The position numbers and the translations under genes were made by a program. Below, in pieces: positions 7,484 through 17,473 of a stretch of 32,791 nucleotides of DNA. Source of the DNA: Chthoniobacteraceae bacterium (GTDB lineage Bacteria; Verrucomicrobiota; Verrucomicrobiia; Chthoniobacterales; Chthoniobacteraceae); the NCBI GenBank assembly GCA_947476045.1, contig CANJNZ010000055.1:1-32791 (forward strand), in the 5' to 3' direction. The notes below the pieces were generated by a model. The model did no database searches, was not told where the DNA came from, and worked only from the letters and a program-made list of their open reading frames with translations. The stretch's first letter is position 1. Each line of letters begins with the position of its first letter.

Positions 7484-7922
7484 CATGGACGTCCCTCCGC
7501 TTTCCATGGACGTCCATGCGTGAAATGGGGGCCGCCCCACGCCGTCCATGGATGTCCTTCCGCCTTCCATGGACGTCCATGCGTGAAATGGGGGCCACCC
7601 CGCGCCACCCATGGACGTCCCTCCGCTTTCCATGGACGTCCATGCGTGAAATGGGGGCCGCCCCGCGCCACCCATGGACGTCCTTCCGCCTTCCATGGAC
7701 GTCCATGCGTGAAATGGGGGCCACCCCGCGCCACCCATGGACGTCCCTCCGCCTTTCATGGACGTCCATGCGTGAAATGGGGGCCACCCCGCGTCGCCCA
7801 TGGACGTCCCTCCGCCTTTCATGGACGTCCATGCGTGAAATGGGGGCCACCCCACGCCGCCCATGGACGTCCCTCCGCCTTCCATGGACGTCCATGCGTG
7901 AAATGGGGGCACCCCCATTTCA
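7484..7922. repeat. 63-bp tandem array of palindromes
   Basis: About seven units with an exact 63-bp period; the marker GTGAAATGGGGG recurs at 7520, 7583, 7646, 7709, 7772, 7835 and 7898. Each unit holds the perfect 14-bp palindrome CATGGACGTCCATG (first at 7505-7518). A partial copy, CATGGAYGTCC, lies 21 bases upstream of each. A GGGGGCC-R-CCCC inverted motif follows. Site spacing alternates 21 and 42 bases. Differences between units are single transitions, mostly C/T or A/G. The array ends in a perfect 11-bp inverted repeat (7899-7909 with 7912-7922). Five of six frames are open, so openness is no evidence for coding. No similar array is present elsewhere in the window. Confidence 0.95.
7899..7922. 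repeat. Inverted repeat closing the array
   Basis: TGAAATGGGGG at 7899-7909 is followed after two bases by its exact complement CCCCCATTTCA at 7912-7922. The left arm belongs to the last 63-bp unit. The right arm occurs nowhere else in the array, so it marks the boundary. Confidence 0.85.
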
Positions 7923-13095: not shown

Positions 13096-14457
13096 TCAAG
13101 CGAGCAGAGCTTTTACGACATGCCCGGAGACATCGGTGAGGCGGTAGTCGCGACCGCCGTGGCGGAATGTGAGCTTTTCGTGATCGAAGCCGAGCAGATG
13201 CAGAATCGTCGCATGGAAATCATGCACGTGAACACCATTCTCAACGACATGTTCACCGTATTCGTCCGTCTTGCCGTAGGCGATGCCGCCTTTCACGCCA
13301 GCGCCTGCGAGCCACGAAGAATACGCAGCAGCCTGATGAGTGCGGCCCTTTGTTCCATCCACATTCGGCGTCCGGCCAAACTCTGTCGTCCACACGACCA
13401 GCGTGTCTTCGAGCATCCCGCGTGATTTCAAATCGCGCAGCAAACCGGCGATGGGGCGATCTACGTTTTTCGCGAGCGGTCCGTGCGTGGCCATGTCGCC
13501 ATGCGCGTCCCAGTTGTCGTGCGAGCCAACGTCAATCAACTCGATGAATCGCACACCGCGTTCGGCGAGACGGCGCGCTACGAGACACTGCCACGCGAAG
13601 CCTTTACTGGAGCCGCGCTCCAAGCCGTAGAGGTCGAGAGTGGCGTCGGTTTCATGGCTCAAATCGAGAACGTCCGGCATCGTCATTTGCATTCCCGCTG
13701 CGGTCTCGAATGACTTGAGCCGCGCGACGAGCGCAGGGTCGGCGGGATGCTTCTGCTGGTGCTTGCGATTGAAGCGGTCGAGCAAACCAAGTTCCAGCCC
13801 CTGCACTTCAGCCGACGGCGAACGGCGCACGAGATTGGGAATCGGCTCTGCGCCCGCAAGCACGCGCGTGCCTGCGTGAATGCCGGGCAGAAAGTCGGAG
13901 CTGAAAACTTGCGTGCCGGCGTAGGGCAATTCCGGCGCGAGCACGACAAACGAAGGAAGATTTCGATTTTCCGTGCCCAAGCCGTAGCTCACCCATGAAC
14001 CCATGCTTGGCCGCGCGAAAGTGACCGATCCGGTGTGAATGCCGAGCGTGGCCTGGAAGTGATCGTTGTGATCACCGCGCATCGAGCGCACGAGGCAGAT
14101 GTCATCCATGCACTCGCGAATGTGTGGAAAAAGATCGCTCACCTCGGTGCCGCACGTCCCGCCGGGTTTGAAATCCCAAAGCGGTGGCAGATAGAGTGAA
14201 GCGCCCGGTTTGTCCGACGTGGGCTTGCCGCCATCGGCTTTCAATCTCGGCTTTGGATCAAACGAATCCATGTGCGACACACCGCCCGTCATGAAGAGGA
14301 AAATCACCCGCTTCGCCTTCCCCGGAAAGTGCGCACCCTGCGGAGCCAGCACGCCGCCATCCTCCGCGAGCAGTTGATTCAAAATGCCGGGAAACATCAT
14401 GGAGCCCGCAACCAGCGAGCGAACCATCTGTCGGCGTGTGCAGCAGGGTTGATTCAT
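13096..14457 (-). CDS. DUF1501 secreted protein
   Basis: 453 residues from the ATG at 14457 (MNQPCCTRRQMVRSL), which has a Tat-like leader. DUF1501 belongs to the alkaline phosphatase/sulfatase superfamily and no activity is established for this type. Characteristic segments seen: FLFMTGGVSHMDSFDPKP, HNDHFQATLGIHTG, DVGSHDNWDAHGD, WTTEFGRTPN. In Planctomycetes and Verrucomicrobia it is routinely the second gene of a pair with a cytochrome/DUF1549/DUF1553 protein. That partner is the upstream gene here, at 14981-17473 on the same strand. The two are separated by a 0.5-kb cassette carrying a GxxExxY gene in the opposite direction. The left inverted repeat of the cassette ends 9 bases before this start. 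Confidence 0.85.
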   Translation of the reverse strand: MNQPCCTRRQMVRSLVAGSMMFPGILNQLLAEDGGVLAPQGAHFPGKAKRVIFLFMTGGVSHMDSFDPKPRLKADGGKPTSDKPGASLYLPPLWDFKPGGTCGTEVSDLFPHIRECMDDICLVRSMRGDHNDHFQATLGIHTGSVTFARPSMGSWVSYGLGTENRNLPSFVVLAPELPYAGTQVFSSDFLPGIHAGTRVLAGAEPIPNLVRRSPSAEVQGLELGLLDRFNRKHQQKHPADPALVARLKSFETAAGMQMTMPDVLDLSHETDATLDLYGLERGSSKGFAWQCLVARRLAERGVRFIELIDVGSHDNWDAHGDMATHGPLAKNVDRPIAGLLRDLKSRGMLEDTLVVWTTEFGRTPNVDGTKGRTHQAAAYSSWLAGAGVKGGIAYGKTDEYGEHVVENGVHVHDFHATILHLLGFDHEKLTFRHGGRDYRLTDVSGHVVKALLA

Positions 14458-14466
14458 ATTTTTAAG

Positions 14467-14495
14467 GCCTCGCACAAAGGCACAAAGGCACGAAG
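14467..14495. repeat. Left 29-bp inverted repeat of the cassette
   Basis: Begins GCCTCGCACAAAGG and ends with AAAGGCACGAAG. It pairs with the arm at 14951-14979 (28 of 29 positions). It contains internal CACAAAGG direct repeats. Confidence 0.85.
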
Positions 14496-14537
14496 AGATT
14501 GACAAGGAAGATGGCTCCCACGGGACTTGGCATCGCT

Positions 14538-14942
14538 ATGAATGAAAACCAAATTGCTAAGATCATCGTCAATGCAGCCTACCAAATTCATACGAAACTT
14601 GGGCCGGGATTGCTGGAGACAGTTTATCAAGTTGTGCTCGCGCACGACTTGAGGAAGCAGGGCCTGACCGTCGAGCGAGAAGTTTCCATTCCCATTTTTT
14701 ACGATGGCTTGCGTTTCGATGAAGGATTTCGGGCCGATCTGATTGTGGGCGACAAAGTCATCGTCGAACTCAAGTCCCTCGAAGCCCTGAATCCTGTTCA
14801 CGCAAAACAAGTCCTCACACAAATCCGTTTGAGCAATCGCAAGCTCGGTCTGCTGATCAATTTCGGTGAAGAGCTTATCAAGAACGGCATTCGTCGTCTC
14901 ATCAACGGAACAATCGCACTCGAAGACGAAACAAATTCCTGA
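14538..14942 (+). CDS. GxxExxY family protein (nuclease-like fold)
   Basis: 134 residues. It has the family-defining motif G24-L-L-E27-T-V-Y30 and a PD-(D/E)XK-type arrangement: D68 in FRADLIV and E77-L-K79 in VIVELKS. The family is widespread in bacteria, often many copies per genome, and its function is not established. The Met at 14538 is chosen because MNENQIAK matches the usual family start; a longer frame begins at 14499. It is the only gene inside the 29-bp inverted-repeat cassette, and its stop ends 8 bases before the right arm. It lies in a DUF1553/DUF1501 operon in the opposite sense. Confidence 0.85.
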   Translation: MNENQIAKIIVNAAYQIHTKLGPGLLETVYQVVLAHDLRKQGLTVEREVSIPIFYDGLRFDEGFRADLIVGDKVIVELKSLEALNPVHAKQVLTQIRLSNRKLGLLINFGEELIKNGIRRLINGTIALEDETNS

Positions 14943-14950
14943 GTCCCTTC

Positions 14951-14979
14951 CTTCGTGCCTTTGTGACTTTGTGCGAGGC
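14951..14979. repeat. Right 29-bp inverted repeat of the cassette
   Basis: Reverse complement of 14467-14495 apart from one base (an A replaces a C within TTTGTGACTTT). It ends one base before the DUF1553 stop codon at 14981-14983. Confidence 0.85.
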
Positions 14980-14980
14980 G

Positions 14981-17473
<2,493 letters not shown>

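Follow-up and report, generated by a model that had tools for sequence, protein, structure and literature searches.

An apparently mobile GxxExxY nuclease cassette with inverted heptamer-array arms in a Chthoniobacteraceae genome

What places a lone nuclease gene, enclosed by a near-perfect pair of inverted repeats, in the gap between two genes that normally adjoin? The question is raised by a short block (Table 1) in the window, by which we mean the whole 32,791-nucleotide stretch of DNA analysed from a Chthoniobacteraceae bacterium. The genome of the window is G000 in what follows, and G005 and G007 are sister genomes.

Table 1. Coordinates of the cassette, its parts and its neighbours in the window.
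Feature	Position	Strand	Remarks
Whole GxxExxY cassette, arm to arm	14467..14979	none	513 bp; bounded by inverted pair; missing at the G005 site; other cassette at the G007 left junction
Left arm: leader GCCTCG and three class-A heptamers	14467..14495	+	Spacing 8/8; CACAAAG 14473-14479, CACAAAG 14481-14487, CACGAAG 14489-14495
GxxExxY gene (PD-(D/E)XK nuclease, class A clade)	14538..14942	+	TIGR04256 and PF13366 over cut-off; reading frame; start ATG 14538, alternative in-frame ATG 14511, stop 14940-14942
Right arm, inverted: three class-A heptamers, then leader	14951..14979	-	8/8 register, as in left arm; read on the - strand: CACGAAG 14951-14957, CACAAAG 14959-14965, CACAAAG 14967-14973
Left neighbour, DUF1501 gene	13096..14457	-	PF07394, 446 bits; start codon (CAT) 14455-14457
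Right neighbour, DUF1553/DUF1549/PSCyt1 gene	14981..17473	-	PF07587, PF07583, PF07635

Anatomy and site of the cassette in the window

The arms are 29 nt each, match at 28 of 29 positions (97% complementary) and stand 455 nt apart; each consists of a short leader followed by heptamers of the type CACRAAG placed 8 nt apart. As the original prediction had it, they enclose one complete GxxExxY gene and nothing else, this gene runs opposite to both of its neighbours, and the block fits closely to the gene edges, nine bases separating the left arm from the DUF1501 start codon and a single base lying between the right arm and DUF1553. With our own aligner the arm pair scores 26.5 against a best of 17 among 277 virtual-gene controls in loci of the genus; a larger control set (n = 2,620) has its 99% point at 14.5 and its maximum at 21. 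The block has terminal inverted repeats as in a classical insertion sequence, and its sole gene is of the PDDEXK_3 family, with no known transposase (DDE, Y1, serine or tyrosine recombinase) in the cassette. Rfam at gathering scores recovered no family in the window or at 8 other loci.

The encoded protein scores 137.8 bits against TIGR04256 (cut-off 35) and 134.6 bits against PF13366 (cut-off 22), no other Pfam or NCBIfam model matching the gene, and both the profiles and the GxxExxY and D/ExK residues place it in the GxxExxY/PDDEXK_3 family. In an alignment of 23 relatives the invariant residues include G23, E26, D66 and K78, with E76 nearly so. At residue 94 (14820-14822, counting from 14541) the other 22 of 23 have the tyrosine of a QxxxY-like motif; the window protein has Q instead, and because of this replacement its nuclease may be impaired. 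An AlphaFold2 model (pLDDT 91.3, pTM 0.84) found no Foldseek match at E 0.001 or better, the best E-values being 1.7e-3 or weaker. A second structural comparison placed PD-(D/E)XK nucleases at the top, namely Cas4 SSO0001 (Z 9.1), restriction-fold proteins (Z 8.7 and 8.3) and the Holliday junction resolvase Hjc (Z 6.9), and these middling scores of a predicted model suggest a PD-(D/E)XK fold rather than a function. The profile matched no PDB sequence up to E 1, and the three GxxExxY proteins tried had no match in PADLOC-DB 2.0.0 or PHROGs. In the open-licence PMC literature, which our search covered, two papers turned up that mention GxxExxY, each a single time and in passing, and among the matches listed no title, abstract opening or passage describes these cassettes. 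Common though GxxExxY genes are, we know of no role for them.

The DNA of the DUF1501 gene is 94-95% identical in G005 and G007 up to the cassette junction. In G005, whose DUF1501 protein is 97% identical, the aligned flanks lie only 16 nt apart and the cassette is absent. Thus, in the closest orthologue that can be read through, DUF1501 and DUF1553 are separated by a short spacer, so that the claimed adjacency of the pair holds for this orthologue, which also provides an empty site of the kind that the prediction had proposed to compare. In G007, whose DUF1501 protein is 98% identical, the left junction is the same and the sequence identical through TTTTTAAGGCCTCGCAC, past which come other repeat units and then another GxxExxY gene. 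The G007 contig ends within this cassette, so that the comparison covers its readable part: 76% protein identity over 29 residues, with only 4 of 12 fourfold sites in agreement, yet DUF1501 DNA that is 95% identical. On the other side of the cassette, the DUF1553 segment at 14975-17434 is 80.9% identical to G005 at the nucleotide level against 90-97% in most of the aligned 500-nt bins nearby, and this change falls at the cassette; other dips in G000/G005 identity lie at 4.0-5.5 kb (74-83%) and at 7.5, 21 and 24-25 kb. Separately, overlapping alignments of window positions ~7492-7919 to one G005 stretch suggest a tandem repeat of ~63 nt there.

Related cassettes in the genome, the genus and other phyla

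A search for other arm-flanked GxxExxY genes in the same genome, as had been proposed, was rewarding: all four PF13366 genes of G000 lie between inverted tandem-unit arms, and all four arm sequences are different. Across the genus, PF13366 genes occur in 9 of 10 genomes, giving 29 match rows, of which 16 have arm scores above 17, the best of the 277 controls. The remaining 13 comprise nine that lie in long open frames (261-388 codons; some have two domains and are perhaps domesticated), one cut by a contig end and three weaker cases. The long frames at L052/L058 (G009:C66) and L054/L056 (G008:C186) each carry a tandem pair of GxxExxY domains, and no arms there rise above the controls.

Several sites could be compared between genomes. 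At pheT/pheS (named by Pfam), G000, G005 and G002 each hold a cassette, no two with the same arms, and the site is empty in G007 and G004; the end of the right-hand gene, as read on this strand, is TTA in the five genomes without a GxxExxY cassette and TCA in the three with one. G005 carries a cassette at the L044 site, where G000 has none. At the glt site there is a cassette in G000, G008 and G009 and none in the six other genomes examined. The glt flanks are common to G000 and G008 at 90-97% over 6-7 kb. No narrow homing tract around a cassette was seen, the glt flanks being shared over this length, and the low-identity segment beside the cassette in the window being DUF1553, with dips elsewhere too. 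By eye, the filled and unfilled sites of the window, phe and L044 yielded no clean target-site duplication, the filled junctions having extra or changed bases. Two of these sites also hold other things: at pheT/pheS, L142 (G009) and L143 (G008) have a different insertion of ~0.9 kb in which no heptamer arms were seen, and at the glt junction L146 (G007) and L148 (G001) have a small different palindrome, GGCCCAATA...TATTGGGCC, in place of the GxxExxY cassette.

Proteins from the same site group as clades, and the identity of same-site genes at fourfold sites is 30-55% in nine pairs, which is near saturation. For G000 and G005 at phe the fourfold-site identity is 43% with flanks at 92%, and for G000 and G009 at glt it is 30% with flanks at 93-98%. 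The conjunction of saturated fourfold sites with flanks that are 92-98% identical in the close pairs therefore points to cassettes having been repeatedly re-acquired by horizontal transfer at the same sites. The same comparison led us to reject the alternative that a single ancestral cassette had evolved fast by vertical descent.

The architecture extends well beyond the genus. A one-genome-per-species scan provided the best 80 loci of a longer list, drawn from many phyla, though favouring one clade because a single conserved peptide was used; 68 of these 80 exceed the 99% control score (n = 2,620 controls), and 63 score at least 16 as against 21 of the 2,620 controls. Among order-level loci, fetched once the grammar had been set down, 55 of 66 lie above the same 99% score. 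A further 40 rows of extra cassettes were hand-picked from listed, previously unfetched matches. The shared grammar consists of a leader (often TTAACC, TTCACC or TGAACC) and heptamers of the form CRCNRAG pointing inward on both sides, with approximately three per arm and a spacing that is mostly 8, 9 or 10 nt (93, 77 and 35 cases). Where 250 nt could be taken on both sides (76 of the 80 loci), CRCNRAG occurs 2.8-3.3 times per 250-nt flank in the inward sense, 0.9-1.0 times in the outward sense and 0.3-0.4 times in control segments. A simple self-match test of 264 GxxExxY arms gave period 9 in 54, 8 in 48, 10 in 7 and 7 in none, the other 155 having no single period since their spacers vary.

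The block in the window is thus well supported, by comparison of genomes, as one intact copy of a widespread, apparently mobile GxxExxY cassette family. The prediction of a gene-sparing mobile cassette stands on the empty sites, on the sister that carries a different cassette at this junction and on the same architecture across phyla; its qualifier, "non-autonomous", is doubtful for the gene-bearing form.

A second kind of gene, whose protein has another fold, has similar surroundings. Four-helix 23S-IVP genes (PF05635) of the genus were examined at the 30 of 38 match rows that had loci (L080-L109), and 25 of these 30 lie in inverted tandem-repeat arms scoring 16 or more. By self-match, the period of their arms (n = 50) is 7 in 29, none in 11 and other in 10, with units such as GGATTGC, CGGATAC, GACGAAT and GTTGAGA (e.g., L100, 1311-1807, and L109, 1312-1915). 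Six of nine IVP sites have at least one sister with a short gap and no cassette. At the L102 site G005 carries a full IVP cassette, and L170 (G007) and L171 (G000) carry a gene-less hairpin with the same arms in a 155-nt gap, which would be either a deletion derivative or a precursor.

Heptamer register, protein clade and gene-less arrays

What is kept between the two arms of a cassette was examined at 59 loci with at least three inward class-A heptamers on each side, chosen without regard to arm score. The spacing pattern is equal in both arms at 55 of the 59, against a mean of 18.6 and a maximum of 32 in 2,000 permutations. Comparing one arm with the other, degenerate heptamer positions agree in 86% of cases (427 of 495) and spacer bases in 56% (93 of 165), the corresponding values between loci being 50% and 44%. 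Because spacer bases match so poorly between arms, pairing does not appear to be the main thing kept; pairing alone would keep the spacers too. Conserved heptamers in a conserved register are what a DNA-binding protein would need. The original suggestion that the arms may fold still has room, folding in RNA or DNA being possible.

The spelling of the heptamer was then set against the protein tree, using classes chosen by eye from the same data: A (CRCNRAG), B (CRCNRAT) and C (ACAGRAT). From a set of 173 genes, compiled after dropping L180 and L258 as duplicates of genus loci, 97 fall in A, 13 in B and 9 in C, and the 20 with other arms and the 34 with none (score not above 14.5) were left out of the trees. 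The class label changes 3 times on the tree built from the 119 classified genes (the minimum being 2), as against a shuffled mean of 21.3, with none of 200 shuffles as low. On a tree restricted to a single order (59 genes, of which 38 are A, 12 B and 9 C) there are 2 changes, the minimum, and in 98-100% of bootstrap trees a single branch sets each class apart. Even among class-A arms, the letters at heptamer positions 2 and 5 sort with the tree: values as low came up in 0 of 300 shuffles, and in 1 and 0 of 300, respectively, within the order. Position 4 does not clearly do so (7 of 300, and 29 of 300 within the order). Both flanks are common to 75 pairs among the 173 loci. At gltB/gltD (named by Pfam for L004 and L203), L004, L040, L046 and L323 are class-B genes in class-B arms, and L203, L283 and L300, one of them from a Planctomycetota genome, are of class A in both gene and arms. 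Therefore the arms travel with the protein and not with the site, and the alignments show heptamer class to follow the nuclease clade rather than the host or the site. This agreement could also arise from linkage within the cassette, without recognition.

These observations bear on the best-surviving alternative, that of a stem-forming selfish insert like the intervening sequences (IVS) of 23S rRNA, in which arm pairing, in RNA or extruded DNA, would serve RNase III or a similar enzyme, and the nuclease gene would be a passenger. The arms are indeed strongly complementary, four-helix IVP genes of the same genus lie in the same kind of arms, and in size and anatomy the cassette resembles the Coxiella IVS, for which excerpts of PMC4990558 give 428 nt, a 28-bp terminal stem and one small ORF. 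We nevertheless consider this account unlikely, given that spacers are matched so much less than degenerate heptamer positions, that spelling follows the protein clade, and that the cassette lies between protein genes with its own gene on the strand opposite to both.

Arrays of the same heptamers are also scattered through the genomes with no accompanying gene, frequently in the form of compact inverted pairs. One compact class-A hairpin of G000 is missing from two sisters, which have different sequence at the corresponding position. Among 147 genomes of the order, class-C arrays are present in 24 of 29 with a class-C gene and in 9 of 118 without (Fisher p 1.4e-15, in tests that treat genomes as independent of shared ancestry and with gene classes assigned by bit thresholds set by eye at score gaps). 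The respective means are 5.3 and 0.21 arrays per genome, counts which include some cassettes' own arms, and the link holds also within genomes with and without class A. Counted the other way, class-C arrays occur in 33 genomes, of which 24 also have a class-C gene and 9 lack one by the threshold used. Class-A arrays are only a moderate marker, being found in 48 of 74 genomes with a class-A gene and in 25 of 73 without (p 0.0003), and they are tied to class C too (26 of 29 genomes against 47 of 118). The presence of class-A arrays as a strict marker of class-A genes was accordingly rejected. Among 28 genomes without a PF13366 match, 8 of which were assigned to this group by elimination from the matches listed, 6 have class-A arrays, and G017 has 12 of them with no such match. 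The gene-less hairpin is likely to be the non-autonomous form of the element.

The commonness of gene-less arrays, including those in genomes without a PF13366 match, could be read to mean that GxxExxY genes were inserted into or captured by pre-existing generic intergenic hairpins, with the repeats produced by another agent or by replication slippage. The original prediction had indeed named arms without GxxExxY genes as grounds for giving up the cassette idea. Such arms do occur; we do not take them as refuting it, since the class of the heptamer goes with that of the protein, and arrays of class C go with genes of class C. The capture of generic hairpins is also hard to square with two heptamer classes at one gltB/gltD site, each with its own protein class, with the full agreement of clade and class among the classified genes of one order, and with the concentration of class-C arrays in genomes with class-C genes (24 of 33), so that we regard it as rather improbable.

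Less probable still is a reading in which the arms serve a small toxin-like or defence nuclease as operators or regulatory hairpins, the locus being shuffled by ordinary homologous recombination. It would account for the sporadic distribution at recurrent gene-end sites, for the lower identity to G005 of the DUF1553 gene next to the cassette than of most of its surroundings, and for the long glt flanks held in common with G008. It sits poorly with a cassette that has no partner gene and proteins that matched neither PADLOC nor PHROGs, and gene-less hairpins far from any copy would need another cause. A chance inverted repeat or an assembly artefact, for which one might cite the draft metagenome contigs and the G007 contig that stops inside its cassette, can be set aside as refuted, since arm scores lie far above controls and the same grammar recurs in records of named strains (e.g., Geothrix fermentans L197, Marinifilum flexuosum L246, and Hymenobacter L222 and L240).

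A proposed mechanism, its known counterparts and its implications

We think it fairly probable that the cassette is a mobile element and that the heptamer arrays of its arms are recognised by the PD-(D/E)XK nuclease that it encodes, such recognition being the most economical link between the spelling of the arms and the clade of the protein. Briefly, we advance the following plausible course of events. The nuclease would bind the heptamer arrays, several protomers to an arm, and either bring the two arms together or meet them as an extruded hairpin. It might then cut the DNA at the ends of the element, close to them, or at an empty site, whereupon host repair would install the cassette just outside gene ends, where it is least harmful. 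The same nuclease could move the gene-less hairpins in trans.

Among the closest counterparts are the REPIN/RAYT systems. They too have one resident small DNA enzyme flanked by palindromic repeats that are also present as many gene-less inverted intergenic copies, and enzyme lineage and repeat class go together. A further point of likeness, the tie of gene-less copies to the cognate enzyme, is found here for class C and more weakly for class A. RAYTs are Y1 HUH transposases, and REP palindromes are mobilised in trans by the resident transposase; in contrast, the enzyme here is a PD-(D/E)XK GxxExxY nuclease, the arms consist of approximately three heptamers mostly 8-10 nt apart, and the cassettes recur at the same conserved gene junctions. 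MITEs and IS-derived miniature elements are short gene-less inverted-repeat copies that accompany coding ones, as is the case with the cassettes, but the latter have no known transposase and no recognised target-site duplication. Homing endonuclease elements are likewise found as related but divergent copies repeatedly at the same site, with empty sites in relatives. The likeness is one of distribution only: the cassette is intergenic rather than in an intron or intein, has inverted heptamer arms, and any cleavage of the empty site by its nuclease is putative.

Rpn nucleases share the PD-(D/E)XK fold, and the cassette, too, carries a small nuclease tied to apparent mobility, but they belong to Pfam PF04754 rather than PF13366, and we know of no heptamer-array arms in Rpn systems. 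In excerpts of PMC5350276 and PMC10327210, these Rpn (YhgA-like) recombination-promoting nucleases are small proteins linked to DNA mobility or defence. The 23S rRNA IVS, as excerpts of PMC4990558 describe it, is of ~0.4 kb, with terminal inverted repeats near 28 nt and one small ORF, sporadic, horizontally spread and hypothesised to be mobile. The cassette shares its size, inverted ends, single small ORF and sporadic horizontal spread, but lies between DUF1501 and DUF1553 rather than in rRNA, encodes the PF13366 fold rather than IVP/S23 (PF05635), and keeps heptamers rather than full pairing in its arms. Finally, the SPADE survey ranked tandem heptamers first in abundance among periodic DNA repeats in prokaryotic intergenic regions, and the part of its text drawn on here gives no clear indication of what they do (PMC6344855). 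Our arms similarly are short tandem units between genes, with those of most IVP genes having period 7, but the same part of that survey makes no connection of its repeats to inverted pairs or genes (PMC6344855).

More tentatively, and with the balance of probability somewhat against it, we suggest a kind of mobile element that has gone undescribed, wherein GxxExxY nucleases of the Cas4/restriction fold would read clade-specific heptamer arrays, each lineage with its own spelling and register, and would maintain a population of gene-less hairpins in trans. The same logic would have been adopted separately by four-helix IVP genes with their period-7 arms, and together the two might explain much of the puzzling abundance of short tandem repeats between bacterial genes.

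From these data the GxxExxY family gains a concrete, testable role, that of a nuclease tied to its own heptamer code, and the cassettes suggest why short tandem repeats stand between genes. If the nuclease does read the heptamer, the many natural nuclease/heptamer pairs (classes A, B and C, with the sub-variants at positions 2 and 5) would be a ready set from which to work out a recognition code.
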